NCBI RefSeq assembly: GCF_002278135.3
Contig: NZ_CP029425.2
Span: 6,300,001-6,364,000 of the forward strand
Length of the DNA stretch: 64,000 bases
Source: Bradyrhizobium ottawaense
GTDB taxonomy: Bacteria > Pseudomonadota > Alphaproteobacteria > Rhizobiales > Xanthobacteraceae
Reading direction: 5' to 3'
The position numbers and the translations under genes are program-made. A model generated the notes under the pieces. The model did no database searches and was not told where the DNA came from. It was given only the letters and a program-made list of their open reading frames with translations. Shown here one piece after another: positions 22,484-44,974 of this stretch (the stretch's first letter is position 1; each line of letters begins with the position of its first letter).

Positions 22484-22508
22484 GGAACGTTCGCGCCAAT
22501 GCGCGGTT
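22484..22508 (+). promoter_or_regulatory. EcfG-like promoter for the His-rich small protein
   Basis: GGAAC at 22484-22488, 16-base spacer, GGTT at 22505-22508. It lies about 30 bases before the start codon of the 22539 gene. This matches the alphaproteobacterial general-stress sigma consensus (GGAAC-N16/17-CGTT) except for the first base of the -10. Confidence 0.65.
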
Positions 22509-22538
22509 TAAATGTGCATTCGATTGGAGGAGGACATC

Positions 22539-22778
22539 ATGAAGAAGCTTGGTTATGTGGTTGCGGCCCTGGGTGCGCTCGTGATCGCGGCGCCGACGCT
22601 GGCGAGCGCGGAGACGGTGGTGATCAAGCGCGGCGGCTACCACCACCATCATCACGGGCCGTACGGCGCTCGCGCCGAATTCCGCGGCCATCGTGACCAT
22701 GGTTGGCATCGTGGCTGGCACAATCGCGACAAGGTCGTGGTGATCAAGCGCAGCCATCGCCATCACAACTGGGACTAA
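22539..22778 (+). CDS. Small exported His-rich protein
   Basis: 79 residues with a clear signal peptide (MKKLGYVVAALGALVIAAPTLASA). The mature peptide of about 55 residues contains GGYHHHHHGPYG and HRDHGWHRGWHNRD plus a final RSHRHHNWD, 18 His in all by eye, and VVIKR twice. Metal binding in the periplasm is plausible but unproven. A very strong GGAGGAGG ribosome binding site precedes the ATG, an EcfG-like promoter lies upstream and a hairpin downstream. Monocistronic. Confidence 0.8.
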   Translation: MKKLGYVVAALGALVIAAPTLASAETVVIKRGGYHHHHHGPYGARAEFRGHRDHGWHRGWHNRDKVVVIKRSHRHHNWD

Positions 22779-22794
22779 TCCAGAGCGCATATGG

Positions 22795-22822
22795 AAATGG
22801 CCCCTCACGGGGCCATTTCTCT
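22795..22822 (+). terminator. Terminator-like hairpin
   Basis: AAATGGCCCC and GGGGCCATTT pair around a TCAC loop and are followed by TCTCTT. Likely ends the small His-rich protein transcript. Confidence 0.75.
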
Positions 22823-22835
22823 TGCGCGCAGTCTT

Positions 22836-22961
22836 GTAGGGTGGGCAAAGCGACTTGTCCGCCATAGCTCGAGGAGCGACGGCGGAAGCGTCGCCCACCG
22901 CTTCCGTAGTGATCAAGGAGAAGTGGTGGGCACGGCGCAAGGGCGCCTTTGCCCACCCTAC
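22836..22961. repeat. Dispersed inverted repeat GTAGGGTGGGCAAAG type, second copy
   Basis: The arms GTAGGGTGGGCAAAGC and GCCTTTGCCCACCCTAC match those at 4310-4402. The interior differs (includes CGTCGCCCACCGC and GTGGTGGGCACGG), so the family is defined by its arms. Confidence 0.75.
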
Positions 22962-22995
22962 GATTATTCTGCGTTCGCAGGGCGTGTTGACGAAG

Positions 22996-23814
22996 CTAAT
23001 CCCACGCCGGCGCGAAGCCCGGATTGACGCAGCGGCGATCCTTGGGCAGCGCCGCGATCTTGTTGCGGTCGGCATCGTCGAGCGTGATCTTCAGCGCATC
23101 GAGATTGGCTTGCTGGCTCTCCCGGCGCGAGGCCTTCGGAATCGCGGCGACGCCGTCCTGGTCGAGCAGCCATTTCAGCGCCACCTGCGCAGCGGTTGCG
23201 TTGTGCCTGGCGCCGATCTCGGCCAGCACCGGCTCCGAGGCAATGCGCCCTTGCGCGAGCGGACAATAGGCCACCAGCGGGATCGACTTCGCGGCGAGAT
23301 AGGCCAGCACCTTCGATTGATCGAGCATTGCGTGATATTCGATCTGGTTGCAGGCGATCGGCACCCTGATGTCCTCGACCACGGTCTTGAGCAGCGCCGT
23401 GGTGAAATTGGCAACGCCAATCGCCCGCGTGCGCCCCTCCTGCTTCAGCTTCATCAATGTCTCGAACACCGCACCCCAGTTCGCCGCCTTCGACGGCCAG
23501 TGCACGAGATAGAGATCGACATGATCGAGCCTGAGCTTGTTCAGGCTCGCATCGAAGGCGCGGCGGATCGCGTCGGGGCCGAGGTTCTCATGCCAGACCT
23601 TGGTCGTGACGTGCAGCTCGCCGCGCGGGAGGCGAGCCGCGGCAAGGGCAGCGCCGATGGATTCTTCGTTGGCGTACATCTCGGCGGTGTCGATGTGGCG
23701 ATAGCCGATCGACAGCGCGCTATCGACTGCGGCGCGGCAGGCATCGCCCTGCATGCGGAAGGTGCCGAGGCCGAGCTTGGGCATGCTGATGCCCTGGGTC
23801 TTCAGATTGTCCAT
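22996..23814 (-). CDS. Aldo/keto reductase (2,5-diketogluconate reductase-like)
   Basis: 272 residues from ATG at 23814. Catalytic tetrad visible: Asp in GYRHIDTAEMYANE, Tyr in the same block, Lys in VTTKVWHENL and His in LYLVHWPSK. C-terminal NADPH-binding block AAIPKASRRESQQANLDAL (IPK and R). Layout matches DkgB/AKR5-type reductases that reduce aldehydes and diketo sugars with NADPH in the cytoplasm. Physiological substrate unknown. A longer frame to 23937 lacks support. Confidence 0.9.
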   Translation of the reverse strand: MDNLKTQGISMPKLGLGTFRMQGDACRAAVDSALSIGYRHIDTAEMYANEESIGAALAAARLPRGELHVTTKVWHENLGPDAIRRAFDASLNKLRLDHVDLYLVHWPSKAANWGAVFETLMKLKQEGRTRAIGVANFTTALLKTVVEDIRVPIACNQIEYHAMLDQSKVLAYLAAKSIPLVAYCPLAQGRIASEPVLAEIGARHNATAAQVALKWLLDQDGVAAIPKASRRESQQANLDALKITLDDADRNKIAALPKDRRCVNPGFAPAWD

Positions 23815-24033
23815 GAACAGGCTCCTGTCGTTCAACCCGCTGGATGCACGCGGCGTTGCCGCGTGGGCAGACTCTTTGGTGATGGAAAAGAGGTGGCGGG
23901 AGTGAGGAGCATAGCCCGGCATGGGCAGCGCGGCCAATCAAGATCGGGTTAGCATTGCACGCACGATTCCTCTCAGCCGTCATGCCCGGGACGAGCCCGG
24001 CCATGACAACTGGGCTCATAATCGCCCCGCCCC

Positions 24034-25608: not shown

Positions 25609-25727
25609 TCAGGAAACCTTCGTCGAATCGCGACGGAAGGTGCCTGCGCTCCTTGACTCCTACCCTTACGGTTTCTTGACCCCGCGCCTACGGTTTTGCG
25701 ACGCGCCGATGACGCGCTCAGACCGGG

Positions 25728-27443: not shown

Positions 27444-27477
27444 TCGTCTCTGACGTCTCACGGGAAGCCCGCCTGTC

Positions 27478-27636: not shown

Positions 27637-27657
27637 CGATCTCCCTTTCCGTGAACG

Positions 27658-28061: not shown

Positions 28062-28086
28062 AACCGGATGAGCAAGCGATCGTTCC
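28062..28086 (-). promoter_or_regulatory. EcfG-like promoter for the PRC-barrel operon
   Basis: On the minus strand GGAAC (28086-28082), 16-base spacer, GGTT (28065-28062). Arranged back to back with the promoter at 28114. Confidence 0.65.
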
Positions 28087-28113: not shown

Positions 28114-28138
28114 GGAACATCGCAGGGAAGGAGCCGTT
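28114..28138 (+). promoter_or_regulatory. EcfG-like promoter for the TPP enzyme gene
   Basis: GGAAC at 28114-28118, 16-base spacer, CGTT at 28135-28138: a perfect match to the general-stress sigma consensus. The start codon is 35 bases downstream. Confidence 0.75.
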
Positions 28139-28173: not shown

Positions 28174-29970
28174 ATGTCCCAGACCGTCTCCGACTTCATC
28201 GTCCAGCGTCTGCATCAATGGGGCGTGCGGCACATCTTTGGCTATCCCGGCGACGGCATCAACGGCGTGTTCGGCGCGATGAACCGGGCCCAAGGCAAGG
28301 AAGGCGAGATCGGCTTCGTGCAGGCGCGGCACGAGGAGATGGCGGCATTCATGGCCAGCGCCTACGCAAAATTCTCAGGGCAGCTCGGCGTCTGCATCGC
28401 GACCTCGGGCCCGGGTGCCTCGCATCTCATCACCGGGCTCTACGATGCGCTGCTCGATCACCAGCCGGTGCTGGCGATTGTCGGCCAGCAGGCCCGCAAC
28501 GCTCTCGGCGGGCACTATCAGCAGGAGATCGACCTTCTCTCCATGTTCAAGGACGTCGCCGGTGCCTACGTCATGCAGGCATCCTCGCCTGCGCAAGTGC
28601 GACACTTGATCGACCGAGCCGTGCGGATCGCGCTGGCGCGGCGGGCCCCGACCGTGATCATCCTGCCCAACGACCTGCAGGAAGAGCCTTACGAGAGCCC
28701 GCCGCGTGCACACGGCACGCTGCATTCCGGCATTGGTTATAGCGCGCCCAGCATCATGCCACGTGAGGCCGATCTCGATCGCGCCGCGGAAGTGCTCAAT
28801 GCCGGCAAGAAGGTCGCGATGCTCGTCGGCGCCGGCGCCCTTGGCGCCACCGACGAGGTGATCGCCGTCGCTGACCGGCTCTCGGCCGGCTGCGCCAAGG
28901 CGCTGCTCGGCAAGGCAGCACTGCCCGACGACCTGCCATGGGTCACCGGCTCGATCGGCCTGCTCGGCACCGAGCCCAGCTACAACATGATGATGGAGTG
29001 CGACACGCTGCTGATGGTCGGCTCTGCCTTCCCCTATGCCGAGTTCCTGCCGAAGGAAGGCGCGGCCCGCGGCGTGCAGATCGACATCGACGCCGGCATG
29101 ATGTCGATCCGCTTTCCCATGGAGGTCGGCCTCGTGGGCGATGCCGCCGAGACGCTGCGCGCTCTGTTGCCGCGGCTGAAGCCCAAGAGCGACGGCGCCT
29201 GGCGCCAAAGTATCGAAGCTGACGTCGCGACATGGTGGAAGACGCTGGATGGCCGGGCACATCAGCCGGCGGCGCCCGTCAATCCGCAGCTCGTCGCCTG
29301 GGAATTGTCCCCGCGCCTGCCCGACCGTGCGATCATCACCAGCGATTCCGGCTCTTGCGCCAATTGGTTCGCCCGCGACCTGAAGATGCGCCGCGGCATG
29401 ACGGCCTCGCTCTCCGGCGGCCTCGCCTCGATGGGCGCCGCAGTGCCCTATGCGCTCGCCGCCAAATACGCCCATCCGGACCGTCCGGTAATCGCGCTGG
29501 TCGGCGACGGCGCAATGCAGATGAACAACATGGCCGAATTGATCACCGCCGCGAAATACTGGCGCTCCTGGCGCGACCCGCGCTTCGTCGTCTGCGTCTT
29601 CAACAACGAGGACCTCAACCAGGTGACCTGGGAGCAGCGCATCATCAACGGCGATCCCAAATTCGAAGCCTCGCAGCGCATTCCCGACGTCTCCTATTCA
29701 CGCTTCGCCGAGCTCATCGGCCTGCGCGGCATCTTCGTCGACACCCCACAGTTGCTCGGCTCGGCCTGGGAGCAGGCGCTGGCAAGCGAGATGCCCGTCG
29801 TGCTGGAGGTGAAGACCGATCCCGAAGTGCCGCCGCTGCCGCCGCATATCACGCTTCAGCAGGCCAAGAACTTCTCGCTCGCCCTCTTGAAGGGCGATCC
29901 GAACGAGAGCGGGATGATCAAGGGAGCAGCGCGGCAGGTGCTCGAAACGATCCTGCCCGGAAAGCAATGA
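28174..29970 (+). CDS. Thiamine pyrophosphate-requiring enzyme (pyruvate oxidase/acetolactate synthase-like)
   Basis: 598 residues, a three-domain TPP enzyme. The N-terminal PYR domain contains the catalytic Glu (QARHEEMAAFMASAYAKFSG), the central domain spans about 190-330, and the C-terminal PP domain has the GDG...NN motif (VGDGAMQMNNMAELI then FNNEDLNQVTWEQ). Not an anabolic ALS by context (no ilvN). It resembles PoxB and the stress-associated TPP proteins of rhizobia. Probable decarboxylation of a 2-oxo acid; product not predictable. An EcfG-like promoter precedes it and a 75-residue gene follows 8 bases after the stop. Confidence 0.88.
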   Translation: MSQTVSDFIVQRLHQWGVRHIFGYPGDGINGVFGAMNRAQGKEGEIGFVQARHEEMAAFMASAYAKFSGQLGVCIATSGPGASHLITGLYDALLDHQPVLAIVGQQARNALGGHYQQEIDLLSMFKDVAGAYVMQASSPAQVRHLIDRAVRIALARRAPTVIILPNDLQEEPYESPPRAHGTLHSGIGYSAPSIMPREADLDRAAEVLNAGKKVAMLVGAGALGATDEVIAVADRLSAGCAKALLGKAALPDDLPWVTGSIGLLGTEPSYNMMMECDTLLMVGSAFPYAEFLPKEGAARGVQIDIDAGMMSIRFPMEVGLVGDAAETLRALLPRLKPKSDGAWRQSIEADVATWWKTLDGRAHQPAAPVNPQLVAWELSPRLPDRAIITSDSGSCANWFARDLKMRRGMTASLSGGLASMGAAVPYALAAKYAHPDRPVIALVGDGAMQMNNMAELITAAKYWRSWRDPRFVVCVFNNEDLNQVTWEQRIINGDPKFEASQRIPDVSYSRFAELIGLRGIFVDTPQLLGSAWEQALASEMPVVLEVKTDPEVPPLPPHITLQQAKNFSLALLKGDPNESGMIKGAARQVLETILPGKQ

Positions 29971-29978
29971 GGTCAACC

Positions 29979-30206
29979 ATGAGCGACTTTCGCGACATCC
30001 AGCACGGCGTCAACGATCCCGTCGATGGCGTCGATGTAAAATACCATTTCAACGACAACAAGACTCCGCACGAGCGCGCGCAGCGCCATGCCGATGTGCG
30101 TGCCGAAGCCACGGCCGTCGCCGCTGAGCCGTTTCTCCCCGAGCGGCTGCGACGCAAGCCGACCGATCCCATCAATCCGCGCACCGGGCGGAATCCGGCG
30201 GATTAA
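29979..30206 (+). CDS. Small hydrophilic hypothetical protein, co-transcribed with TPP enzyme
   Basis: 75 residues, MSDFRDIQHGVNDPVDGVDV at the start and PTDPINPRTGRNPAD at the end. Charged, no membrane segment, low hydrophobicity. It begins 8 bases after the TPP enzyme, so the two share the EcfG-like promoter at 28114. No family recognised. Confidence 0.75.
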   Translation: MSDFRDIQHGVNDPVDGVDVKYHFNDNKTPHERAQRHADVRAEATAVAAEPFLPERLRRKPTDPINPRTGRNPAD

Positions 30207-30212: not shown

Positions 30213-30237
30213 GGAACCTCGGCGCATACGACGTGTT
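30213..30237 (+). promoter_or_regulatory. EcfG-like promoter for DUF4142 gene (first copy)
   Basis: GGAAC at 30213-30217, 16-base spacer, TGTT at 30234-30237. The other DUF4142 gene (34092) has the same TGTT -10 variant. Confidence 0.55.
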
Positions 30238-30293: not shown

Positions 30294-30845
30294 ATGAGAC
30301 GTACCATCATCGCCCTTGCCTGCGTGCTTGTCGCAGGGCCCGCGCTCGCCCAATCTCTTGGCGAGAAGACCGGCGTCAATTCGGCGCTCGGTGTCGCGCC
30401 AACGACTGCCGACTTCGTCAAGCAGGTCGCCATCAGCGACATGTTCGAGATCGAGTCGAGCAAGCTCGCTACGCAAAAGGGCAACGCGCAGGAGAAGAGC
30501 TTCGCGCAGCAGATGGTGACCGACCACACCAAGACCAGCACCGAGCTCAAGGGTCTCGTCGGTGACGGCAAGGTGCAGGCGACCCTTCCGACGGCGCTCG
30601 ACAGCTCGCACCAGAGCAAGCTCGACAAGCTCAAGAGCGCGAATGGCAAGGACTTCAGCTCGGACTACAATTCCTACCAGGTGAGCGCCCATGAGGATGC
30701 CGTGTCGCTGTTCGAGCGCTACGCCAAGGGCGGCGACAATTCGGCGCTGAAGGATTGGGCCGGCAAGACTCTGCCGGCGCTCAAGCACCATCTCGACATG
30801 GCCAAGGAGCTCGGCAAGGCGCCGAGCGTCGGCCAGGCGAAGTAA
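30294..30845 (+). CDS. DUF4142 exported protein
   Basis: 183 residues. Signal peptide MRRTIIALACVLVAGPALA, then a DUF4142 four-helix domain (ADFVKQVAISDMFEIESSKLATQKGNAQEKSFAQQMVTDHTKTS). The domain is ferritin-like in shape and found in periplasmic proteins linked to envelope stress; no reaction is established. Preceded by an EcfG-like promoter, followed by a G/C hairpin. A second, shorter DUF4142-like protein is encoded at 34092. Confidence 0.9.
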   Translation: MRRTIIALACVLVAGPALAQSLGEKTGVNSALGVAPTTADFVKQVAISDMFEIESSKLATQKGNAQEKSFAQQMVTDHTKTSTELKGLVGDGKVQATLPTALDSSHQSKLDKLKSANGKDFSSDYNSYQVSAHEDAVSLFERYAKGGDNSALKDWAGKTLPALKHHLDMAKELGKAPSVGQAK

Positions 30846-30879: not shown

Positions 30880-30972
30880 CGCGGGCCTGGTGCCGACGCG
30901 GCCGAACCCAGGAACCTTCGTTGATTCCGGGCTTTACAAATTTGTCATGAAGAACATCTCGCCTGCGGACCG

Positions 30973-31551
30973 ATGGCGCTCGTAACAGTCAAACCCACCC
31001 GGATCGATACGGCGATCGCGAACGAGATCGCGCACCACACCAACTCCGGCCTCGAGCATGCGGCCCAGACATTGACCTGGGGCGCCGACGAGCATGTGCT
31101 CATCGCGCTCGCCGCCGCGGGATGGCTCTACACCCGGCTGCGGCAACCGCAGCAGCGTCGCGTTGCAGATCACATTCTCATGGTCTCGCTGGCGACAGCC
31201 GTGCTGCCGCATGTTCTCAAATCCGTGTTCGATCAGACCAGGCCGGACCGGCTGACGGTGGCCGGCCACTGGCGCGGCGTCCCCTTCTCGGGGCGATCAC
31301 GCGACGCATTTCCCTCCGGTCACGCCGTGCACATGGGCGCCCTCGCCTCGGCGGCCGACCTGTTGCCGCCTGCCCGGCGTCAGGCGGTCCGCTTCGTTGC
31401 CGTGGCGCTGTCGTTGACGCGCATCGTGGTGCTGGCGCATTGGGCCAGCGACGTGGTGGCCGGTTTCGCGCTCGGCGTCGCCGTCGAGCGACTGTTCAGG
31501 CCGTTCACGCTGGCGAAGCGGCGGTCCAAGGCCTCACGGATACGGCCATGA
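30973..31551 (+). CDS. PAP2 superfamily phosphatase, membrane
   Basis: 192 residues with several membrane segments. The three PAP2 motifs are present: K-S-V-F-D-Q-T-R-P-D-R (motif 1, KxxxxxxRP), AFPSGHAVHMG (PSGH, motif 2) and SLTRIVVLAHWASDVVAG (SRxxxxxHxxxD, motif 3 with Thr for one Ser). Acid phosphatase acting on lipid phosphates such as phosphatidate or undecaprenyl-PP at the periplasmic face. Stop overlaps the start of the next gene (ATGA), so it is translationally coupled to the DUF3147 pair. Confidence 0.88.
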   Translation: MALVTVKPTRIDTAIANEIAHHTNSGLEHAAQTLTWGADEHVLIALAAAGWLYTRLRQPQQRRVADHILMVSLATAVLPHVLKSVFDQTRPDRLTVAGHWRGVPFSGRSRDAFPSGHAVHMGALASAADLLPPARRQAVRFVAVALSLTRIVVLAHWASDVVAGFALGVAVERLFRPFTLAKRRSKASRIRP

Positions 31552-31895
31552 CCGAATACCTCCTGCGCTTCATCGCCGGCGGCCTGATCGTCTCTGCCTT
31601 CTCCATCCTGGGCGACATGCTGCGGCCGAAGAGCTTTGCCGGCCTGCTCGGCGCGGCGCCGTCGGTCGCTCTGGCCACCCTCAGCATCGCCGTCGTCCAG
31701 CACGGCCCGCAATATGTCGCCGCCGAAAGCTGGACGATGATCTATGGTGCCATCGCACTCGGCTGCTACAGCATCGTCGTCTGCCATCTCCTGATGAGGT
31801 TTCATTTCTCCGCACTGCCAGCCACCATTCTCGCTTTTGCCGCATGGCTCGTCGTCGCCTTCGCTCTGCTCGCGGGTTTCGGAGGTGCTGCCTGA
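31548..31895 (+). CDS. DUF3147 small membrane protein
   Basis: 115 residues, about four membrane segments, starting MTEYLLRFIAGGLIVSAFSI and containing LGDMLRPKSFAGLLGAAPSVALATL, the hallmark of DUF3147. Start overlaps the PAP2 stop by ATGA, and its own stop overlaps the next start (TGATG). Inner-membrane protein of unknown function, probably acting with its neighbours. Confidence 0.85.
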   Translation: MTEYLLRFIAGGLIVSAFSILGDMLRPKSFAGLLGAAPSVALATLSIAVVQHGPQYVAAESWTMIYGAIALGCYSIVVCHLLMRFHFSALPATILAFAAWLVVAFALLAGFGGAA

Positions 31896-32380
31896 TGCTG
31901 GTCAAGATGTCTGCATCGGCGCTGAAACAGACTCGGTGGTACGAGTACGGTATCCGCTTTCTGCTCGGCGGACTGGCGACGGTCCTCGCGGGAGCCGTGA
32001 CCACAGGTTTCGGCGTCTCCGTCGGCGGCCTCTTCCTCGCGCTCCCCGCCATCTTCTGCGCCAGTGCAACGCTGATCGAAAGCCATGAGCGCCGCGCCAA
32101 GGAAAAGGCCGGCCTCAGCGGAGACAGACGCGGGCAGCAGGCCGCAGCGCTCGATGCCGCCGGTGCCGGCCTTGGGAGCATCGGTCTCGCAGCGTTCGCT
32201 GCAGTCTTTTATCTCGTGGTTTCGACAACCGTGATCGGCGCATTCGTCGCCGCCATCCTGGTATGGGCGGCCGTGTCGGTGTCGGCTTGGTGGCTGCGGC
32301 GAAAGCTTCGCATCACCTCGAGGACCGTGCAGACCAAACGCATGGGGCCATCAGCGAGGGGCCGCGGCCTCTTCCCGTAG
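31895..32380 (+). CDS. DUF3147-related membrane protein
   Basis: 161 residues from ATG at 31895. Two N-terminal membrane segments (YGIRFLLGGLATVLAGAVTTGFG and VGGLFLALPAIFCASATLIESH), a charged loop (ERRAKEKAGLSGDRRGQQ), then two more C-terminal segments. The GGLFLALPAIFCAS block parallels the LLGAAPSVALAT block of the preceding gene, pointing to an old duplication. Its 3' end overlaps the convergent gene at 32351 by 30 bases. Function unknown. Confidence 0.78.
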   Translation: MLVKMSASALKQTRWYEYGIRFLLGGLATVLAGAVTTGFGVSVGGLFLALPAIFCASATLIESHERRAKEKAGLSGDRRGQQAAALDAAGAGLGSIGLAAFAAVFYLVVSTTVIGAFVAAILVWAAVSVSAWWLRRKLRITSRTVQTKRMGPSARGRGLFP

Positions 32381-32796: not shown

Positions 32797-32821
32797 GGAA
32801 CTCCCGCCAAGTTGGTTCGTT
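32797..32821 (+). promoter_or_regulatory. EcfG-like promoter for the RHH gene
   Basis: GGAAC at 32797-32801, 16-base spacer, CGTT at 32818-32821: perfect consensus. Its -10 overlaps the palindrome starting at 32820. Confidence 0.75.
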
Positions 32822-32860: not shown

Positions 32861-33109
32861 ATGAACGACCTTCGCGCCGAGCGCCTACAGGTCATGCTCA
32901 CGCCGGAAGAGTTGGCCGCCGTTGACGATTTCCGGTTCAAACATCGCATGCCGACGCGGGCGGCAGCGGTCCGCGAACTGCTCAAGTTCGGATTGGCCGC
33001 CGTCGGCGTCGACGCGGCTGCGGGTGTGAAGTCGAGCAGCTTCGGCGTTTTCGGCCGCGGGCCCGACGGGCATACGCAGGAGGATCCCGAGAACGGCACC
33101 GGGGGCTGA
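32861..33109 (+). CDS. Ribbon-helix-helix (CopG/Arc-like) DNA-binding protein
   Basis: 82 residues. The N-terminal 50 residues fit an RHH fold: beta strand AERLQVMLTPEELAAVDDFR followed by helix pairs (KHRMPTRAAAVRELLKFGLAAVG). The C-terminal Gly/Asp-rich tail looks disordered. No toxin partner follows, so it is not an obvious antitoxin. The operator-like palindrome over its own promoter suggests autoregulation, and the perfect EcfG-like promoter places it in the stress regulon. Confidence 0.75.
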   Translation: MNDLRAERLQVMLTPEELAAVDDFRFKHRMPTRAAAVRELLKFGLAAVGVDAAAGVKSSSFGVFGRGPDGHTQEDPENGTGG

Positions 33110-33260: not shown

Positions 33261-33482
33261 CTAGCCGCTCGGCGCGTCGCCGGAATCGTCCGGCGTCATG
33301 CCGGAGCCCGGCGTCTTGCTGTTGTCGTTGAGCTTGGGATCGCGCGTCGCCTCCCGCGACGGCGAGCCTTTCGAACCCGTCTTTTGCGGATCCGTCTTGT
33401 GCACGGACTGTGCGCGCTGCTTGTCGCGCGGCTGTTCCTCCGCCCGTTTGTCCTTGACGATGCCGTGGTCGGAATGGGCCAT
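33261..33482 (-). CDS. Small hydrophilic hypothetical protein
   Basis: 73 residues, MAHSDHGIVKDKRAEEQPRD at the start; rich in Lys, Asp, Ser, Gly, Pro and Thr with no hydrophobic core, so predicted disordered. It carries SKTPGSGMTPDD near its end. An EcfG-like element (GGAAC-N16-CGTA) lies about 40 bases upstream. Composition recalls hydrophilin-type stress proteins (inference). Confidence 0.7.
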   Translation of the reverse strand: MAHSDHGIVKDKRAEEQPRDKQRAQSVHKTDPQKTGSKGSPSREATRDPKLNDNSKTPGSGMTPDDSGDAPSG

Positions 33483-33518: not shown

Positions 33519-33543
33519 TACGCACTGCGGCGTCGAATGTTCC
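33519..33543 (-). promoter_or_regulatory. EcfG-like promoter (imperfect -10)
   Basis: Minus strand GGAAC (33543-33539), 16-base spacer, CGTA (33522-33519). Three of four -10 positions match. Confidence 0.45.
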
Positions 33544-34058: not shown

Positions 34059-34083
34059 GGAACTCCGCACGCCATTGGCTGTT
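34059..34083 (+). promoter_or_regulatory. EcfG-like promoter for the second DUF4142-like gene
   Basis: GGAAC at 34059-34063, 16-base spacer, TGTT at 34080-34083. The start codon at 34092 is only 8 bases after the -10, so the transcript would be leaderless or nearly so. Confidence 0.5.
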
Positions 34084-34091: not shown

Positions 34092-34607
34092 ATGCGAGTT
34101 CTTGTCGCGATCATCCTGGCATTCATCAGCACCGCAGCGCTTGCCGACAGCACCGGTGAACGAAAGTCTGGCGACCGCCCTCCGAGCGCAACCGACGTCA
34201 TCAGCGGCCTTTATGATTTCAGCCGCTTCCAGCAGGGCCTCCTGGAGAGCACCGATCTGAAGGGCAACGCCGAGGTCAAGAACCTCGCCGCCTTGCGTGC
34301 CGAGGAAGCGGCCAAGCGCGACAAGGCGCTGAAGCAGATCCAGGAGGCGATCGGCGCGGAGCCGCGCATCGGCAAGACGACGTCGGTCAGCGCGGGCCTG
34401 CTGGTCGAGCCCGAAACGTCCGACGGACCGACTTACGTCCGAAGCTTCTATGCCTCGCAGATTCCCGAATATGAATCGGCCATTGACCTGCTCGAACGCT
34501 ATTTGAAGGCGCCCGATAACGCGGCGCTCGCAACGTTTGCGCGCGAGCAGCTCCCGATGCTGCGCGCACAGGTCAAGGACGCCGGGCGCACCATGGCGGA
34601 CAAGTAG
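34092..34607 (+). CDS. DUF4142-like exported protein
   Basis: 171 residues from ATG at 34092, which starts a clean signal peptide (MRVLVAIILAFISTAALA). The mature protein is helical: ATDVISGLYDFSRFQQGLLES, KNLAALRAEEAAKRDKALKQI and a last helix with YESAIDLLERYLKAPDNAALA, the DUF4142 pattern also seen in the 30294 protein. Periplasmic; function unknown. No ribosome binding site is obvious, in keeping with a possible leaderless transcript. Confidence 0.75.
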   Translation: MRVLVAIILAFISTAALADSTGERKSGDRPPSATDVISGLYDFSRFQQGLLESTDLKGNAEVKNLAALRAEEAAKRDKALKQIQEAIGAEPRIGKTTSVSAGLLVEPETSDGPTYVRSFYASQIPEYESAIDLLERYLKAPDNAALATFAREQLPMLRAQVKDAGRTMADK

Positions 34608-34617: not shown

Positions 34618-34911
34618 TTATTTGTCGTTCGGATGATGTTGCTGGCTCTGCGGTCGCACGGTGCGGTCGCTCTCCGGCATCCGGTCCCGGCCCGCATCCC
34701 CATTGTCGTCCTTGCCGCCCGAAGACGAGGTGCCGCTGCCGCTCGGGTTCGACCGGGTCGCCGCCCCCGTCGTCGGAGTATCCGCCCTCGGGCTGGCGGA
34801 GCTCGCGGCGGGATCGCCGGTCACCGCCCCGCGGCCGCTGGGCGCTCCGCCCTGCGCCAAGGCCGACCCGGCAAACAGCACGACGACGATCGCGGCAAGT
34901 CCTGCTTTCAT
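34618..34911 (-). CDS. Exported hypothetical protein, low complexity
   Basis: 97 residues. Signal peptide MKAGLAAIVVVLFAGSALAQ, mature part Gly/Ser/Thr/Asp-rich (GSGTSSSGGKDDNGDAGRDR) and likely disordered in the periplasm. An EcfG-like promoter lies 27 bases upstream. Convergent with the DUF4142-like gene, only 10 bases apart. Confidence 0.75.
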   Translation of the reverse strand: MKAGLAAIVVVLFAGSALAQGGAPSGRGAVTGDPAASSASPRADTPTTGAATRSNPSGSGTSSSGGKDDNGDAGRDRMPESDRTVRPQSQQHHPNDK

Positions 34912-34937: not shown

Positions 34938-34962
34938 AACCGCGAGGGTTGGCGCTCGTTCC
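34938..34962 (-). promoter_or_regulatory. EcfG-like promoter for the 34618 gene
   Basis: Minus strand GGAAC (34962-34958), 16-base spacer, GGTT (34941-34938). Confidence 0.6.
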
Positions 34963-35028: not shown

Positions 35029-35053
35029 GGAACCAATTCGGCGGATCGTGGTT
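35029..35053 (+). promoter_or_regulatory. EcfG-like promoter upstream of the giant kinase operon
   Basis: GGAAC at 35029-35033, 16-base spacer, GGTT at 35050-35053. It is about 140 bases upstream of the start codon, leaving a long leader. Confidence 0.55.
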
Positions 35054-35191
35054 ATATTTGCCGGGCTGAGCAAAGCAGGTTCCATTTGCTGGCGCCGCAA
35101 GGTTGGCGCTTGATTTCGAATTTGGCTGACGCTCTATGTTGACCAATCGCGTCTGGCCATAGATTCGGCCGACACCTGCGGGGGAATCAGT

Positions 35192-38100
35192 ATGAGCGAC
35201 CTCGATCCCGGATCTGCATCACGGTCCGGTCGTCGCGTCCCAAAGCCAAAGCCCAACGGTGTATCGGATCCGGATTCCCGGGCCGAATTGCTGCTCGCCC
35301 TGCAGGCCATGCGCAGCGGCGATTTCTCCGTCCGCATGAGCGGCGACTATCTCGGCATCGACGGCAAGATCGCCGACACTTTTAATGAAATCATCGCCGC
35401 CAACCAGCGCATGGCGCAGCAGCTCGAACTGGTCGGCCAGGTGGTCGGCCGCGAAGGCAAAACGCGCCAGCGCGTGAAGTTCGGCCTCGCCTCGGGCTCC
35501 TGGGCCGACATGGAAGGCTCCGTCAACACGCTGATCGACGACCTGCTGTGGCCGACCCGCGAGGTGACGCGTGCGGTCGCGGCGGTGGCGCAAGGCGACC
35601 TGCTCCAGACCGTCAAGCTCGACGTTGACGGCCGTCCACTCCGGGGCGAATTCCTGCAGTCGGCGACCATCGTCAACACCATGATCAAGCAGCTCGGCGT
35701 GTTCACCTCCGAGGTGACGCGCGTGGCGCGCGAGGTCGGCACCGAGGGCAAGCTCGGCGGCCAGGCCCAGGTGCCGGAAGTGACCGGCGTCTGGAAGGAC
35801 CTCACCGAGAGCGTCAACTCGATGGCGAACAACCTGACCAATCAGGTTCGCAACATCGCCGAGGTGACGATCGCGGTCGCCAACGGCGACCTCTCCAAGA
35901 AGATCACGGTCGACGTCCGCGGCGAGATCCTTCAGCTCAAGGAAGCCATCAACACGATGGTGGACCAGCTCCGCTCCTTCGCCTCAGAAGTGACGCGCGT
36001 GGCGCGCGAGGTCGGCACCGACGGCAAGCTCGGCGGCCAGGCGATCGTGCCCGGCGTCGCCGGCACCTGGAAGGACCTCACCGACTCCGTCAACGCGATG
36101 TGCGGCAACCTGACCGCACAGGTGCGCAACATCGCCAACGTCACCACCGCCGTGGCGCGCGGCGACCTGTCGCGCAAGATCACGGTGGACGTGCGCGGCG
36201 AGATCCTGGAGCTGAAGGACACCATCAACACCATGGTGGACCAGCTCAACTCGTTCGCCTCGGAAGTGACGCGCGTCGCGCGCGAGGTCGGCACCGAAGG
36301 CAAGCTTGGCGGACAGGCGCAGGTGCCTGGCGTTGCCGGCACATGGAAGGATCTCACCGACAACGTCAACTTCATGGCCTCGAACCTGACGGCGCAGGTC
36401 CGCAACATCGCCGACGTCGCCACCGCCATCGCGAGCGGCGACCTCTCGAAGAAGATCACGGTGAACGTCTCGGGCGAAATCCTTCAGCTGAAGGAGACGC
36501 TCAACACCATGGTCGACCAGCTCAACGCGTTTGCCGGCGAAGTGACCCGCGTGGCGCGCGAAGTCGGCACCGAGGGCCGGCTCGGCGGCCAGGCCAACGT
36601 GCTCGGCGTCGCCGGCACCTGGAAGGACCTCACCGAGAGCGTCAACTCGATGGCGTCGAACCTGACCGCGCAGGTTCGCAACATCGCCGAGGTGACCACC
36701 GCGGTCGCCGGCGGCGATCTGTCGAAGAAGATCACGGTGGACGTGCGCGGCGAGATCCTGGAGCTGAAGGACACCATCAACACCATGGTGGACCAGCTCA
36801 ACGCCTTCGCCGGCGAAGTCACGCGCGTCGCGCGCGAGGTCGGCACCGAAGGCAAGCTCGGCGGCCAGGCCGTCGTGCGCGGCGTCGGCGGCACCTGGAA
36901 GGACCTCACCGACAGCGTCAACTCGATGGCCTCGAACCTCACCGGCCAGGTCCGCAACATCGCCGAGGTCGCGACCGCGGTCGCCAAGGGCGATTTGTCG
37001 AAGAAGATCACAGTGAACGTGTCGGGCGAAATCCTTCAGCTGAAGGAAACGCTCAACACCATGGTCGACCAGCTCAACGCCTTCGCCGGCGAAGTCACGC
37101 GCGTCGCCCGCGAGGTCGGCACCGACGGCAAGCTCGGCGGCCAGGCCGGCGTGCCCGGCGTTGCCGGCACCTGGAAGGACTTGACCGACTCCGTGAACTC
37201 GATGGCGGGCAACCTCACCGCCCAGGTCCGCAACATCGCCGAGGTCGCGACTGCGATCGCGGGCGGCGACCTGTCGCGCAAGATCACCGTGGACGTGCGT
37301 GGCGAGATCCTGCAGCTCAAGGACACGCTGAACACGATGGTCGACCAGCTCAACCGCTTCGCGGGCGAGGTGACGCGCGTGGCGCGCGAGGTCGGCACCG
37401 AAGGCCGCCTCGGCGGTCAGGCCAACGTGCCGGGTGTCGCCGGCACCTGGAAGGATCTCACCGACAGCGTGAACTCGATGGCGGGCAACCTCACCGCCCA
37501 GGTCCGCAACATCGCCGAAGTGACCACCGCCGTCGCGCGCGGCGACTTGTCGCGCAAGATCACCGTCGACGTGAAGGGCGAAATCCTCGAGCTCAAGAAC
37601 ACCATCAATACGATGGTCGATCAGCTCAACGGCTTCGCCGGCGAAGTGACGCGCGTGGCGCGCGAGGTCGGCACCGAAGGCAAACTCGGCGGACAGGCCG
37701 AGGTGCCCGGCGTCGCCGGCACCTGGAAGGACCTCACCGACAACGTCAACTTCATGGCCTCGAACCTGACGGCCCAGGTCCGCAACATCGCCGAGGTCGC
37801 GACCGCGATCGCAGGCGGCGACCTGTCGAAGAAGATCACGGTGGACGTGCGCGGCGAGATCCTGCTGCTCAAGGACACCTTGAACACCATGGTCGAGCAG
37901 CTGCGCTCCTTCGCCGCCGAAGTGACGCGCGTCGCGCGCGAGGTCGGCACCGAAGGCCGGCTCGGCGGTCAGGCCGTCGTGCCCGGCGTCGGCGGCACCT
38001 GGAAGGATCTGACCGACAACGTCAACCTCTTGGCCGCGAACCTCACCACTCAGGTCCGCAACATCGCCGAAGTGACCACGGCGGTCGCGCGCGGCGACTT

Positions 38101-41100: not shown

Positions 41101-41491
41101 CAGTTCCGACGAGGATTTGATCGGCAAGACCGCGCTGCTCGTCGACGACGACGCCCGCAACATCTTCGCGCTGTCGAGCGTGCTGGAACGGCGCGGCATG
41201 AAGGTGCTGACCGCCACGACCGGCCGTGAAGCCGTCACCCTGGTCGAATCCAATCCGGAGATCGCCATCGTTCTGATGGACATCATGATGCCGCAGATGG
41301 ATGGCTACCAGACCATCGGCGTCATTCGCGAAAACCAGGCCTTCGCCCGCCTTCCGATCATCGCGCTGACCGCCAAGGCGATGAAGGGTGACCGGGAAAA
41401 ATGCCTGGAGGCCGGCGCGTCCGACTATCTCGCCAAACCCGTCAACACCGATCAATTGCTACTTGCGATCCGCATGTGGCTGCACCGATGA
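35192..41491 (+). CDS. Giant soluble poly-HAMP hybrid histidine kinase with three receiver domains
   Basis: 2099 residues, no membrane segment. Order: HAMP-like units in about 1-173; eleven near-identical 92-residue HAMP units in 174-1185 (each starting [18 protein letters not shown] or similar); a GAF domain about 1205-1345; a coiled coil 1350-1420 ([20 protein letters not shown]); HisKA with H1432 in [13 protein letters not shown]; HATPase ([28 protein letters not shown]); then receiver domains with phospho-Asp at D1761, D1883 and D2030. The plan resembles fungal group III kinases (Nik1/Os-1), which sense osmotic stress through HAMP repeats. The stop overlaps the next gene (ATGA). An EcfG-like promoter lies upstream. 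Confidence 0.93.
35711..38746 (+). repeat. Eleven tandem 276-bp coding repeats (HAMP units)
   Basis: Units begin at 35711, 35987, 36263, 36539, 36815, 37091, 37367, 37643, 37919, 38195 and 38471, exactly 276 bases (92 codons) apart. Several pairs are nearly identical in DNA over long stretches, so copy number could change by recombination without breaking the frame. The last unit is the most diverged ([18 protein letters not shown]). Confidence 0.92.
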
Positions 41492-42993
41492 GTTTGGATC
41501 CGCGAATGGACCACGAAAAGGTCAACATCCTCCTCGTCGACGACCAGCCGGCCAAGCTGCTCGCCTATGAGGTGATCCTGAAGGAACTCGGCGAGAACCT
41601 CGTGGTCGCTTCGTCCGGACGCGAGGCGCTGGAGGTGCTGCTCAAGACCGAGATCGCGGTGATCCTGGTCGACGTCTGCATGCCCGAGCTCGACGGCTTC
41701 GAGCTTGCCGCGATGATCCGCGAGCATCCGCGCTTCCAGAAGACCGCGATGATCTTCATCTCCGCCATCCAGGTCAGCGACATCGACCGGCTGCGCGGCT
41801 ACGAGATGGGTGCGGTCGACTACGTGCCGGTCCCGGTCGTGCCGGAGGTGCTGCGCGCCAAGATCAAGGTGTTTGCCGAGCTCTACCGCAAGACCCGCGA
41901 GCTGGAACGGCTGAATCAGGAGCTCGAGGATCGCGTCCGCGCACGCACGGCGGAACTGGAGAACTCCACCGCGAAGCTGCGCGAAAGCGAGCAACGGCGC
42001 AGCATGGCCATCGCCGCCGGCAAGATGGGTTCCTGGGATTGGGACTGGATCAGCGGCGACTGGATGTGGGACGAGGGGCAATATCGCATCTTTGGCGTCG
42101 GCCCGGAGAGCTTCGAGGTCAATCCGGCCAACGTCCAGGCGCTGTTGCATCCCGACGACGTCGATCAGTTGCGCAAGGCGATCGCCGAATTCAACAAGGG
42201 CACGCGTGCCTATGAGACCGAGTTCCGCATTGTGCGGCCCGACGGCGAGGTGCGCTGGTGCGTCGGCACGGCGGCCGCGACGGTCGACGACAGCGGTCGC
42301 GTCGTGCGCGTGAGCGGTGTCACCGTGGACATCACCGAACGCAAGCGAGCCGAGGAACGGCAGAATTTGCTGGCGCGGGAAGTCGATCACCGCGCCAAGA
42401 ATGCTCTGGCGCTGGCGCAGTCGATCGTCCGCCTCACCCGCGCCGACGAGGTCAAGGCCTATGTCAGCGCCGTCGAAGGACGCATCAATGCGCTGGCGCG
42501 CGTGCACACCATCCTGTCGCTGTCGAGCTGGCAGGGCGCGGAGCTCTCCAAGCTGATCGACGAGGAGCTTGCGCCCTATTCGCTCGGCGGCCAGATCATA
42601 TTGGCGGGTCCGGAGGTCCAGTTGCTGCCGGCGACGGCCCAGACGCTGGCGCTCGCGCTGCACGAGCTCTTCACCAACTCGGCCAAGTATGGCGCACTCT
42701 CGACCAGGTCGGGACGGCTCACGATCGGCTGGCAGGTCGAGGACCAGCTGCTGACGCTGAGCTGGGAGGAATCCGGCGGTCCGCTCGTCATGACGCCGAA
42801 ATCGCGCGGCTTCGGCACGCGGAGCCTGCTAGCGAGCGTCGAGTCCCAACTCGGTGGACAGGCGCAATTCGATTGGCGAGCCGAAGGACTGTTGTGCCGC
42901 CTCAAGGTGCCGCTGACACGCAAGACGGCGACGGCCGCCCCCGGAAAATTCGACGCCCCCAGCTCAGCCGAATTGCAACGCGCCTCGGGCTAA
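41488..42993 (+). CDS. REC-PAS-HWE histidine kinase
   Basis: 501 residues from ATG at 41488, overlapping the poly-HAMP kinase stop by 4 bases. A receiver domain (residues 12-130; [20 protein letters not shown], phospho-Asp in [13 protein letters not shown]) is followed by a coiled coil, a PAS domain (about 170-290; [20 protein letters not shown] to [12 protein letters not shown]) and an HWE/HisKA_2 kinase with phospho-His in [17 protein letters not shown] and [17 protein letters not shown] kinases commonly feed the PhyR-NepR-EcfG general stress pathway of alphaproteobacteria. The N-terminal receiver could be phosphorylated by the upstream kinase. Confidence 0.92.
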
Positions 42994-43093
42994 AGCGCGA
43001 TGCGATCAGGATGAAGCGTCATCGCGCTTTGGTTTGTTGTTTGAGCATGATCTTTTCGGAAAACCGCTGCGCACTTTTCCGGATCGTGCTTTA
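42991..43093. repeat. Dispersed double-hairpin repeat with TAAAGC...GCTTTA ends
   Basis: The first hairpin pairs AAAGCGCGATG with CATCGCGCTTT. The second pairs GCATGATC-TTTTCGGAAAA with TTTTCCGGATCGTGC. This is the well-known GCATGATCTTTTCGGAAAACC family of alphaproteobacterial intergenic repeats. Its two ends provide the TAA stop codons of the kinase gene on the left and the leftward 43091 gene on the right. Confidence 0.85.
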
Positions 43094-43312
43094 GCCCGAC
43101 GCCGCCATCCTGGTTTGCCGCGGCGGCCGCGCTTCCTCGGCGAGGCGTCCTTCGAGCCAGGCTTCCGTCTGAGCGAGATCGCGTAGCGCCCTCGCGTAGC
43201 GGCGGGCCGCACTTCGCTCCGCACCGCGCGGCAGTTTGCGGGCCTTGCGCAGCATGTCCGCAGCCGCGTTGCGATAGGCCAGTGAGCGGTAAAGAAAGAC
43301 TACCTTACCCAT
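43091..43312 (-). CDS. Small basic conserved hypothetical protein
   Basis: 73 residues from ATG at 43312: MGKVVFLYRSLAYRNAAADM, then helical Arg/Ala-rich segments (GAERSAARRYARALRDLAQTEAWLEG). Strongly basic and helical, cytoplasmic, possibly nucleic-acid binding (inference from charge only). The longer upstream frame lacks a ribosome binding site. Its stop codon lies in the dispersed repeat. Confidence 0.7.
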   Translation of the reverse strand: MGKVVFLYRSLAYRNAAADMLRKARKLPRGAERSAARRYARALRDLAQTEAWLEGRLAEEARPPRQTRMAASG

Positions 43313-43402
43313 ACCGAATGTTCCCGTTTTGCTGACGCTCATCCTCGCAGGCCCGGCATGAACGTCGGATGAAGCCGGTGATGACAATTCCTTCATGCGT
43401 TT

Positions 43403-43427
43403 GGAACCGGCGAATATGGCCCGCGTT
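43403..43427 (+). promoter_or_regulatory. EcfG-like promoter, perfect match
   Basis: GGAAC at 43403-43407, 16-base spacer, CGTT at 43424-43427. It sits 28 bases before the ATG at 43455 and therefore argues against the earlier in-frame start at 43395. Confidence 0.72.
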
Positions 43428-43454
43428 TGCATGTCAGTTCGGGATGCGGTTCCC

Positions 43455-43712
43455 ATGCGCGCAAAAAAGTCGTCGGACCTGATCTCTCCCACCGGCCTCA
43501 TCAAGCTGATGACGCATGCGATGATGGGCGCAGCCCTCGGCCTCGCCTTCAGCCTCACGCTGATCCTGTCCAATCCCGCCGTCGCCAAGCTGCTCGATCA
43601 CGGCGGAAGCCAGGCCGCAATCATCTTCGCCCTGACATTGGTGACGACGTTCGCGATCGGCGCGACACTCACCGGCGTCGTGTTCATCCTCGCAGAGGAC
43701 AAGCAATCTTGA
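43455..43712 (+). CDS. Small inner-membrane protein, two membrane segments
   Basis: 85 residues from ATG at 43455, start decided by the promoter at 43403-43427. Two hydrophobic helices: LMTHAMMGAALGLAFSLTLIL and AAIIFALTLVTTFAIGATLTGVVFIL, joined by a short Pro/His loop. No known domain. Expression is likely under general-stress control. Short distance (33 bases) to the next EcfG-like promoter. Confidence 0.75.
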   Translation: MRAKKSSDLISPTGLIKLMTHAMMGAALGLAFSLTLILSNPAVAKLLDHGGSQAAIIFALTLVTTFAIGATLTGVVFILAEDKQS

Positions 43713-43745
43713 AGCGTGCGTGCGGCCCGGCAGATACGTTTGTCG

Positions 43746-43770
43746 GGAACTCCTTCGGCAAATGGCGGTT
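43746..43770 (+). promoter_or_regulatory. EcfG-like promoter for the 43808 gene
   Basis: GGAAC at 43746-43750, 16-base spacer, GGTT at 43767-43770, 37 bases before the start codon. Confidence 0.62.
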
Positions 43771-43807
43771 GGCTGCCTGCGTCAATTTAACTCAGGGAGT
43801 TCCCCGC

Positions 43808-44056
43808 ATGACAACGGCAAAACTCGTTCTCACCGCAATTTTGGCCACCGGCCTCGCCGCGGCGCCGCTCGCCGCACAGGCCAAGTCGCACAAGGCCAAA
43901 CACGGATCATCGATGTCGTCCTCGCAGACCACGGGCGCCAACACCAAGGCCTCGAAGGGCGCGGATCCTTCCGGCCAGGGCGGCTCCGGTCCCGGCTCGG
44001 ACCAGGGCGGCACCATGACGAACAAGAGCAGCAAGGGCATGAGCAATACCAAGTGA
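43808..44056 (+). CDS. Small exported low-complexity protein
   Basis: 82 residues. Signal peptide MTTAKLVLTAILATGLAAAPLAAQA; mature part Ser/Gly/Lys/Thr-rich (KASKGADPSGQGGSGPGSDQ), probably unstructured in the periplasm. Preceded by an EcfG-like promoter and CAGGGAG ribosome binding site, followed by a strong terminator. Similar in style to the 34618 protein. Function unknown. Confidence 0.78.
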   Translation: MTTAKLVLTAILATGLAAAPLAAQAKSHKAKHGSSMSSSQTTGANTKASKGADPSGQGGSGPGSDQGGTMTNKSSKGMSNTK

Positions 44057-44076
44057 GCTCAGGCCGACATGACATC

Positions 44077-44107
44077 AAAAGCCCCGCGGCGACGCGGGGC
44101 TTTTTTT
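44077..44107 (+). terminator. Intrinsic terminator
   Basis: AAAAGCCCCGCG and CGCGGGGCTTTTTTT form a 12-bp stem with a GCGA loop and a run of seven T. Confidence 0.92.
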
Positions 44108-44162
44108 CTTGATGCGGGATCGGCAATCGAGCGCCACATCGTCGAGCGCCGGCGTCAGCTCG

Positions 44163-44381
44163 TTACGGGCGACGCGTTTCAGAGTTGAGCGGGCGGCTCG
44201 CAGCATTCGTCTTCACGAGTTGCTCGAGCTGCGCCCGCTTGCGTCCGATCAGAAGTTGGGCCGCAGCATCGTCGAGCCCCGCACGCTGCAATTGCCGGAT
44301 GGCCGAGCCCAATTCGAGAATCTCGGCGCGCAACCTCAAGATCCGGTAAGTGTCCGGGTCCTCCTCCACGGCGCCCCCCAA
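44163..44381 (-). CDS. Small helical hypothetical protein
   Basis: 72 residues: MGGAVEEDPDTYRILRLRAE then ILELGSAIRQLQRAGLDDAAAQLLIGRKRAQLEQLV, two amphipathic helices likely to form a coiled-coil hairpin. It begins 6 bases after the preceding leftward gene (44388), so the two form an operon. No known domain. Confidence 0.7.
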   Translation of the reverse strand: MGGAVEEDPDTYRILRLRAEILELGSAIRQLQRAGLDDAAAQLLIGRKRAQLEQLVKTNAASRPLNSETRRP

Positions 44382-44387
44382 AAGGTG

Positions 44388-44663
44388 TCAGCGCCGCGTG
44401 CTCGCGCGCTCGGGACCGACGGCTGTCTTCACGAGACGAAGGCGCACCCGGTCGCGAACGTCAGGCAGGACATCGCCGCCGCCAGCAGCCTTCCATTCGC
44501 CGATCAGCAAATTGACCTTCCGGCGCAAATCCATCTGCGCCAGGGCTTGCTGGACGCAATCGCGGTCGCCGTTGATGAGATCGCGCACGGAGGCCTCGAC
44601 GCCGGCCATCTCAACCCTCAAGGCGCTGATTTTACGTCGAATTTCATTAATTCTGTTGTCCAT
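44388..44663 (-). CDS. Small helical hypothetical protein, operon partner
   Basis: 91 residues: MDNRINEIRRKISALRVEMA then GVEASVRDLINGDRDCVQQAL, heptad-like and probably coiled coil, with a Gly-rich break and a basic C-terminus. First gene of the leftward pair. Its upstream region is unusually AT-rich (44660-44705) with two AGAACA repeats. Function unknown. Confidence 0.7.
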   Translation of the reverse strand: MDNRINEIRRKISALRVEMAGVEASVRDLINGDRDCVQQALAQMDLRRKVNLLIGEWKAAGGGDVLPDVRDRVRLRLVKTAVGPERASTRR

Positions 44664-44724
44664 GGCTTGTTAGAACAAAATAAGAACATATAGTCAAGTC
44701 ACGATTTCAGGACGGAGAAGCGAC

Positions 44725-44919
44725 ATGCAGGTTCAGGGCAAATACGACGCCAGGGTTTTCCTCGCCGAGCAGATGACACGGACGCAGGGGCTGAGGTTGA
44801 AACGGCTGAGCGAAGAAGCGTATCAGCCCGCGCAATATGCGCGCGATCTGTCCTTCAGCGAGGCCGCACGTCGTATCCAGGTGCTGGAAGCCGAGATCGA
44901 GCTGGCGAATTCCTTCTAG
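44725..44919 (+). CDS. DUF3072-like small protein
   Basis: 64 residues. The segment LAEQMTRTQGLRLKRLSEEA through LSFSEAARRIQVLEAEIEL matches the DUF3072 pattern (a T-x-x-Q-x-x-x-L-x-x-L-x-E-E-A helix, then S-x-x-E-A-x-R-R-I). GGACGGAGAAG region serves as ribosome binding site. Cytoplasmic, unknown function; related proteins often occur in stress regulons. Confidence 0.72.
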   Translation: MQVQGKYDARVFLAEQMTRTQGLRLKRLSEEAYQPAQYARDLSFSEAARRIQVLEAEIELANSF

Positions 44920-44949
44920 GCTGCGCCTGGAACACTGTCCGCGTCCTTC

Positions 44950-44974
44950 GGAACCATGCCCGTGTCGAATGGTT
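44950..44974 (+). promoter_or_regulatory. EcfG-like promoter for the histone-tail-like gene
   Basis: GGAAC at 44950-44954, 16-base spacer, GGTT at 44971-44974, 24 bases before the ATG. Confidence 0.65.

Follow-up and report, generated by a model that had tools for sequence, protein, structure and literature searches.

A predicted cluster of EcfG-type general stress promoters, with a two-kinase operon among its genes, in the chromosome of Bradyrhizobium ottawaense

The window analysed here is a stretch of 64,000 nucleotides (nt) of the Bradyrhizobium ottawaense chromosome (contig NZ_CP029425.2, positions 6,300,001 to 6,364,000), the host genome being a single contig of 8.59 Mb. Its segment 22484-44974 carries genes for a PRC-barrel protein, a thiamine pyrophosphate (TPP) enzyme, DUF4142 and DUF3147 proteins, several small proteins and two histidine kinases, and is predicted from its sequence to be, very probably, a 22-kb cluster of promoters of the general stress response (GSR) read by the extracytoplasmic function (ECF) sigma factor EcfG. 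Twelve EcfG-like sites had been claimed for this segment in a sequence-only reading, and all 12 were found, at the claimed spacing and upstream of the claimed starts. The -35 element GGAAC and a spacer of 16 nt (N16) are common to 12/12 sites; eleven are GGAAC-N16-NGTT and one, located at 33543(-), is GGAAC-N16-CGTA, the -10 elements being GGTT (6), CGTT (3), TGTT (2) and CGTA (1). The fixed spacer and the NGTT/CGTA form of the -10 element described in that reading hold for this genome and its 12 sites, respectively, and not for the relatives, where orthologous promoters alternate between N16 and N17 and NATT occurs in some. The set of twelve was also incomplete, a further probable site at 30911 having been overlooked.

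An exact search for GGAAC-NGTT with N16 or N17 gave 12 matches in the window, all with N16 and none with N17, and NGTT at the other spacers from 12 to 23 nt gave 0-3 matches each. Eleven of the 12 lie within 22484-44974; the remaining one, 7141(-), is inside the called open reading frame (ORF) 6721-7659 and is probably due to chance. Shuffled versions of the window contained 2.16 matches on average and 7 at the most, and none of 100 shuffles reached 12. When the 258 GGAAC-N16-NGTT sites of the whole genome were placed uniformly, 11 sites in any 22.5-kb window were obtained in 0 of 20,000 simulations (largest number, 9). The background for the intergenic density came from the same chromosome, as 40 stretches of 20 kb each, evenly spaced except for one at 6450001 and avoiding the window. 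By automatic gene calling, 10 of the 12 island sites (as GGAAC-N16-NGT(T/A)) were intergenic, in 3.30 kb, and by manual gene calling all 12, in 3.15 kb; 15 of the 31 background matches were intergenic, in 137.9 kb. On the automatic counts the intergenic density is about 28 times higher in the island (Fisher p ~1e-10). The claim that the twelve sites are far above chance was borne out by the shuffles, the simulations and this density, and equal density in other intergenic DNA, named in the sequence-only reading as its refutation, was not what was found. Intergenic background matches of GGAAC-Nx-NGT(T/A) with N14, N15, N16, N17, N18 and N19 numbered 4, 4, 15, 5, 1 and 4, respectively, and the excess of N16 over its neighbours would amount, very roughly, to 120 sites in the whole genome; the reversed pattern was commoner in the background overall (70) and was intergenic in 12 cases. 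An Rfam search of 22000-46000 at the gathering threshold gave no RNA-element match.

Conservation was followed in two sets of relatives, those with titles being mostly Bradyrhizobium. The main set consisted of 80 loci around the HWE kinase gene at 41488 (the best 80 of 249 matches), in which a match was counted wherever it fell in the 250 nt before an orthologue; the second consisted of 18 same-genus stretches around the TPP enzyme gene, 12 of them syntenic, and some contigs are common to both sets. The strict motif was GGAAC, N16 or N17, and NGTT or NGTA, and the relaxed -10 element was N[GA]T[TA]. Strict counts are given first because the relaxed element is noisier: at the poly-HAMP kinase gene (35192), 32/66 regions also match at N19 or N20. 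Upstream of that gene (promoter 35029) the strict motif was kept in 57/66 relatives, the relaxed -10 element in 64/66 and GGAAC in 66/66; the counts for most of the other promoters are given in Table 1. The orthologues at 35192 and 32861 that fail the strict motif mostly have N16-NATT, and a NATT -10 element is also present in the published EcfG promoter table of Sphingomonas melonis (PMC6599016; this and the other papers cited are drawn on from excerpts of their text). In seven of eight aligned sets of orthologous promoters GGAAC is invariant, beside a spacer identity of 52-75%; the -35 element of the eighth set (34618) was misplaced by the aligner, apparently because many copies have N17. 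A change of the spacer between 16 and 17 nt with both boxes kept is what is predicted for a sigma-factor site.

For control genes in the 80-locus set, the strict motif was found in 0/68 (degP), 0/65 (45290), 0/71 (44725) and 2/66 cases (33803, N16), and in the TPP-stretch set in 0/12 (29979), 0/12 (26256), 0/10 (24034) and 0/5 cases (22996); gene 29979 had the motif in 1/4 cases in the 80-locus set. GGAAC alone was rejected as evidence, 45290(-) keeping it upstream without an EcfG-type -10 element. There, at 45652-45716(-), GGAAC is present in 64/65 relatives and no -10 element stands at 16 or 17 nt. The 80-locus result for the DUF4142 gene 30294 (44 regions, 10 strict) was set aside, the best hits often being the second DUF4142 paralogue, and its conservation was taken from the syntenic set instead (12 of the 18 fetched loci). 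Among the six other loci, with the TPP gene outside the syntenic set, a site was upstream of this gene in four of the five usable cases (three N16, one of these at -236, and one N17) and absent in one; the sixth locus was left out, its match beginning inside the gene. The site at 30911 is called only a probable promoter, weaker than the others, because the strict pattern fails there (0/15 relatives at N16 and 1/15 at N17). GGAAC is found at -100 to -30 in 16/19 relatives with sufficient upstream sequence, 11 of these 16 have CTTT at N16 or N17, and one entry of the S. melonis table also ends in CTTT (PMC6599016).

Some results tell against an island of EcfG promoters. The raw genome-wide count of the pattern is no higher than that of the backwards control (258 versus 288); places were listed for the first 100 of the 258 sites, up to about 3.33 Mb. 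Raw enrichment was therefore dropped as support. The sites are enriched locally and by position, and the case rests on position, spacing and conservation. Part of the conservation is in turn shared descent, because the relatives compared are the closest ones (best 80 of 249). The promoter of 34092 is the weakest of the 12, with GGAAC in 63/63 relatives, the relaxed -10 element in 62/63 and the strict one (N16 or N17) in 10/63, NATT being present in most. The raw count would fit a chance accumulation of so short a motif in a GC-rich sequence, but the local density and the simulations, the lack of any NGTT match at N17, and an invariant GGAAC in seven of eight aligned promoters beside a drifting spacer leave this explanation a practically negligible probability, and it was rejected on density, spacing specificity and conservation.

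In the alphaproteobacterial stress switch, phosphorylated PhyR binds NepR and EcfG is thereby freed. The genome has one NepR match, over the Pfam cut-off and under the NCBIfam cut-off, and beside nepR are two genes whose products pass the cut-offs of their models, one for an ECF sigma factor (NF009192) and one, divergent, for PhyR (NF006623). NF009192 is an RNA polymerase sigma factor model and is not named EcfG; the sigma factor is called EcfG here because it adjoins nepR and phyR. In the intergenic region of this core, GGAAC-N16-CGTA is found on the phyR side and no pattern match on the nepR-ecfG side. The phyR-ecfG core is at 1.36 Mb and the island at 6.32-6.34 Mb of the chromosome. The ots genes, which served as a positive control, were assigned as otsA (Glyco_transf_20) and otsB (Trehalose_PPase), with the preceding sugar transporter gene taken as otsC. 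One N16 site is upstream of otsC and of otsA each (GGAAC at 2303 and 4918 of the genome stretch L139, respectively), 59 nt upstream of otsA and 126 nt upstream of the inferred start of otsC, the longest ORF of which starts before the site. In Bradyrhizobium diazoefficiens otsCB and otsA are reported to be EcfG-controlled (PMC8092242), and the island and that regulon are probably parts of one genus-level system; bll6649 is likewise named as EcfG-dependent in that species (PMC8092242).

The sites share GGAAC, the 16-17 spacing and an NGTT-like -10 element (including GGTT, CATT and GTA variants) with known EcfG (ECF15) regulons. The Rhizobium etli EcfG1 site is GGAAC-N16-CGTT, one of the targets having a mapped 5' end at the expected position (PMC3892343); a PRC-barrel gene is listed in the S. 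melonis promoter table, as are GGTT, CATT, GTA and CTTT forms of the site (PMC6599016). PRC-barrel proteins and small proteins of no assigned function are likewise among the targets in such regulons (PMC3892343, PMC6599016). Unlike in them, about a dozen promoters lie here within 22 kb, away from phyR-ecfG, and GGTT is the commonest -10 element (6/12). The main text of a paper with a transcription start site map (PMC4842269) does not contain GGAAC, and EcfG occurs in it once, in the reference list. The promoters might be real and belong to an ECF sigma factor other than EcfG, since EcfG is not alone in recognizing a GGAAC -35 element: 17 putative ECF factors are encoded by B. japonicum (PMC3420878), and GGAACTT is given for E. 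coli RpoE in a review (PMC8103513). This explanation is improbable, for the -10 element and the spacing fit EcfG as described for R. etli (PMC3892343) and S. melonis (PMC6599016), and sites of the same kind stand at phyR, otsC and otsA of this genome. EcfG as the sigma factor of the island is thus supported by the presence of EcfG, NepR and PhyR in the genome, by these sites and by the conservation of the island sites upstream of orthologues (as many as 72 for one gene).

GGAAC-N16 sites are also clustered at 690000-718000 of the same genome (stretches L083 and L084), which is probably another GSR island. DUF3618, CsbD and phasin genes are among those preceded by a site, one site is 30 bp upstream of an HWE kinase gene that adjoins a response regulator gene, and an ATP-dependent DNA ligase gene is nearby, with one site inside it.

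The features of the segment are collected in Table 1. It had been described as consisting of mostly unknown genes, which is fair, several of the small proteins having no family, but leaves unmentioned that the largest unit is a recognizable two-kinase operon. Pyruvate oxidase models match the TPP enzyme only below their cut-offs, and the gene 29979 is probably in one unit with 28174. At promoter 34059, GGAAC is 33 nt before the ATG of 34092 and the -10 element varies between NGTT and NATT among relatives; because of this short distance the transcript may be leaderless or begin near the codon.

Table 1. Promoters and genes of the EcfG-type cluster, with positions in the window. Fractions are relatives with the strict motif unless another element is named; "by eye" marks a visual assignment.
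Feature	Position	Strand	Remarks
EcfG-type promoter GGAAC-N16-GGTT	22484..22508	+	55 nt upstream of 22539; kept in 4/4 relatives with the gene in the stretch compared
Small His-rich protein, 79 aa	22539..22778	+	Probably exported (by eye); no family over cut-off
PRC-barrel protein, 124 aa	27658..28032	-	PF05239
EcfG-type promoter GGAAC-N16-GGTT, PRC-barrel gene	28062..28086	-	12/12 syntenic (7 N16, 5 N17)
EcfG-type promoter GGAAC-N16-CGTT, TPP enzyme gene	28114..28138	+	12/12 syntenic, N16
Thiamine pyrophosphate enzyme	28174..29970	+	NF006129 family
75-aa protein	29979..30206	+	No own motif (0/12 syntenic)
EcfG-type promoter GGAAC-N16-TGTT, DUF4142 gene	30213..30237	+	12/12 syntenic, N16
DUF4142 protein	30294..30845	+	PF13628; start signal-peptide-like by eye
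Probable 13th promoter GGAAC-N16-CTTT	30911..30935	+	Precedes PAP2/DUF3147 genes
PAP2 phosphatase	30973-31551	+	Pfam
Two DUF3147 proteins	31548-31895, 31895-32380	+	Pfam
EcfG-type promoter GGAAC-N16-CGTT	32797..32821	+	Strict 57/64; N[GA]T[TA] 63/64; GGAAC 64/64
82-aa protein	32861..33109	+	No Pfam family; ribbon-helix-helix-like by eye
73-aa hydrophilic protein	33261..33482	-	Disordered-looking by eye
EcfG-type promoter GGAAC-N16-CGTA	33519..33543	-	65/66, always CGTA
EcfG-type promoter GGAAC-N16-TGTT	34059..34083	+	Upstream of 34092
Second, divergent DUF4142 protein	34092..34607	+	Pfam
97-aa low-complexity protein	34618..34911	-	Start signal-peptide-like by eye
EcfG-type promoter GGAAC-N16-GGTT	34938..34962	-	41/43 (15 N16, 26 N17)
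EcfG-type promoter of two-kinase operon	35029..35053	+	163 nt upstream of ATG
Possible housekeeping promoter CTTGAT-N17-CTCTAT	35109..35137	+	By eye, in conserved leader
Poly-HAMP hybrid histidine kinase, 2099 aa	35192..41491	+	HAMP array, GAF, HisKA, HATPase, three receivers
REC-PAS-HWE histidine kinase with HRAKN	41488..42993	+	ATG overlaps preceding stop (ATGA)
EcfG-type promoter GGAAC-N16-CGTT	43403..43427	+	71/72 (62 N16)
85-aa protein	43455..43712	+	Membrane-like by eye
EcfG-type promoter GGAAC-N16-GGTT	43746..43770	+	64/64
82-aa low-complexity protein	43808..44056	+	Start signal-peptide-like by eye
EcfG-type promoter GGAAC-N16-GGTT	44950..44974	+	71/71 (67 N16)
DUF6496 protein	44999..45277	+	PF20106; Lys-rich histone-like tail by eye

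The leader between promoter 35029 and the ATG of the two-kinase operon is about 80% identical among relatives. CTTGAT-N17-CTCTAT within it looks like a possible alphaproteobacterial housekeeping promoter; a sigma-70 scan of the leader, based on an E. coli-type consensus, found none. The poly-HAMP kinase has 11 and 12 HAMP stretches, respectively, by two Pfam models, with a repeat period of 92 residues, and shows no clear membrane helix, its mean hydropathy over 19 residues reaching 1.62 at most. Among its matches in the own genome at E<=1e-40, of which 150 of 212 candidates were scored, the HAMP array is present in this kinase only. The array matches PDB entries 9trk and 9trj, HAMP-array histidine kinase constructs by molecule name, with E values of 1.9e-123 and 1.1e-63, respectively. 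By architecture alone, the kinase is like the fungal group III (Nik1/TcsC-type) hybrid kinases, which have a HAMP array, a histidine kinase and a receiver, take part in stress signalling and are called fungal-specific in one abstract (PMC11253588); unlike them, it has a GAF domain, three receivers and a bacterial host. The second kinase matches PF07536 with 79.4 bits (cut-off, 22.8), and its best solved-structure match by sequence is 6ph4, a blue-light-activated histidine kinase. It has the HWE kinase domain and HRXXN motif of the PhyR kinases of the HWE/HisKA_2 class (Pak, LovhK and PhyK); unlike them, it carries an N-terminal receiver and a PAS domain and is co-operonic with a poly-HAMP hybrid kinase.

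The HWE kinase was matched at E<=1e-60 in 20 of 199 genomes of the order, this genome included, and in a 103-genome sample of another family at E<=1e-90 in 30, of which 17 belong to one genus (g54). NepR is encoded within 9 kb on the same contig in 12 of these 17; three more (G305, G306 and G310) are undecided, the pieces being on different contigs. The gene order at the 12 linked loci (L166, L174-L184) is phyR(-), ecfG, poly-HAMP kinase, HWE kinase, NepR being found in 12/12 by Pfam search and in 10/12 by tblastn with Bradyrhizobium NepR. All 12 have divergent EcfG-type sites between phyR and nepR, and GGAAC-N16/17-CGTT before the poly-HAMP kinase gene (1 N16, 11 N17). At L162, a locus outside that family, the kinase pair directly follows a DUF4142-like gene that has an N16 site. 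In the window's own genome the HWE kinase is not encoded near phyR/ecfG; three of the ten HWE kinases there have an N16 site before them (binomial 5e-4), a count treated as weak, being post hoc and dependent on uncertain start codons.

The kinase pair is taken, with moderate confidence, as part of the GSR signalling input under the GSR's own control. Under stress, phosphorylated PhyR would bind NepR and release EcfG, and EcfG-RNA polymerase would read the GGAAC-N16-N(G/A)TT promoters of the island. The output would comprise the PRC-barrel, DUF4142, PAP2/DUF3147, small hydrophilic and Lys-rich proteins and the TPP enzyme as protective proteins, together with the two kinases; that EcfG transcribes the island units and that the small proteins protect is what we infer. 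A relay in which the poly-HAMP kinase signals to the HWE-kinase receiver, and this to PhyR, is tentatively proposed; it would give positive feedback on the stress response. In its full form, as a dedicated GSR input in which a cytoplasmic Nik1-like HAMP array senses stress, phosphate passes via the HWE-kinase receiver to PhyR, and EcfG increases transcription of the module from P1 above a base level that P2, possibly a housekeeping promoter, would supply, the proposal is given just short of an even chance.

Several points weigh against such an input. Linkage of the kinases with the core was seen in one genus only, and even there two of the 17 kinase-bearing genomes (G303 and G210) lack the NepR link; no link was seen in the remaining 13 genomes with the kinase from that family, though several of these are fragmented drafts. 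A second NepR is encoded elsewhere in each of the 12 linked genomes, whose main core may therefore be another than the linked one. Nor is the kinase promoter general beyond close relatives. Of 12 more distant loci, two (L163 and L166, the latter also counted among the linked loci) have the strict site before the poly-HAMP kinase gene, and in L167 and L168 it stands before another hybrid kinase gene, in an operon of similar make-up. L164 gives an ambiguous result, the site is missing from L162, L165, L169, L170 and L172, and L171 and L173 have another architecture. HRXXN, moreover, is common to all ten HWE matches of the genome and therefore fails to single out the kinase at 41488.

The kinases might be EcfG-dependent and signal elsewhere, for example to a motility or second-messenger regulator, and so be an output of the GSR and not an input. 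The confinement of the physical link to one genus, with a second NepR in each such genome, would suit this, as would the transcriptional link of the S. melonis stress response to motility and biofilm regulation (PMC6599016), and the explanation is a real possibility, if somewhat short of even. It has to be set against the class of the second kinase, HWE/HisKA_2 kinases with HRXXN being described as controlling PhyR (PMC4814048, PMC5898713), and against the linkage and promoter in 12/12 linked g54 loci. Core regulators of the GSR are described as being transcribed from GSR-dependent promoters themselves, which amplifies the response (PMC8103513).

The promoter class is already known, and the kinase module is new to us; of the titles and abstract openings found by searches of openly licensed literature, none joins a poly-HAMP hybrid kinase to the GSR and none reports a PhyR kinase for Bradyrhizobium, which is not proof of absence. 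The island provides a compact, conserved list of candidate genes. Its two-kinase operon is a candidate for bringing the stress signal to PhyR in Bradyrhizobium and points to a bacterial parallel to the sensing of stress by fungal HAMP arrays; if the proposal is true, the module would be a candidate PhyR kinase in this genus and a positive-feedback arm of the GSR.

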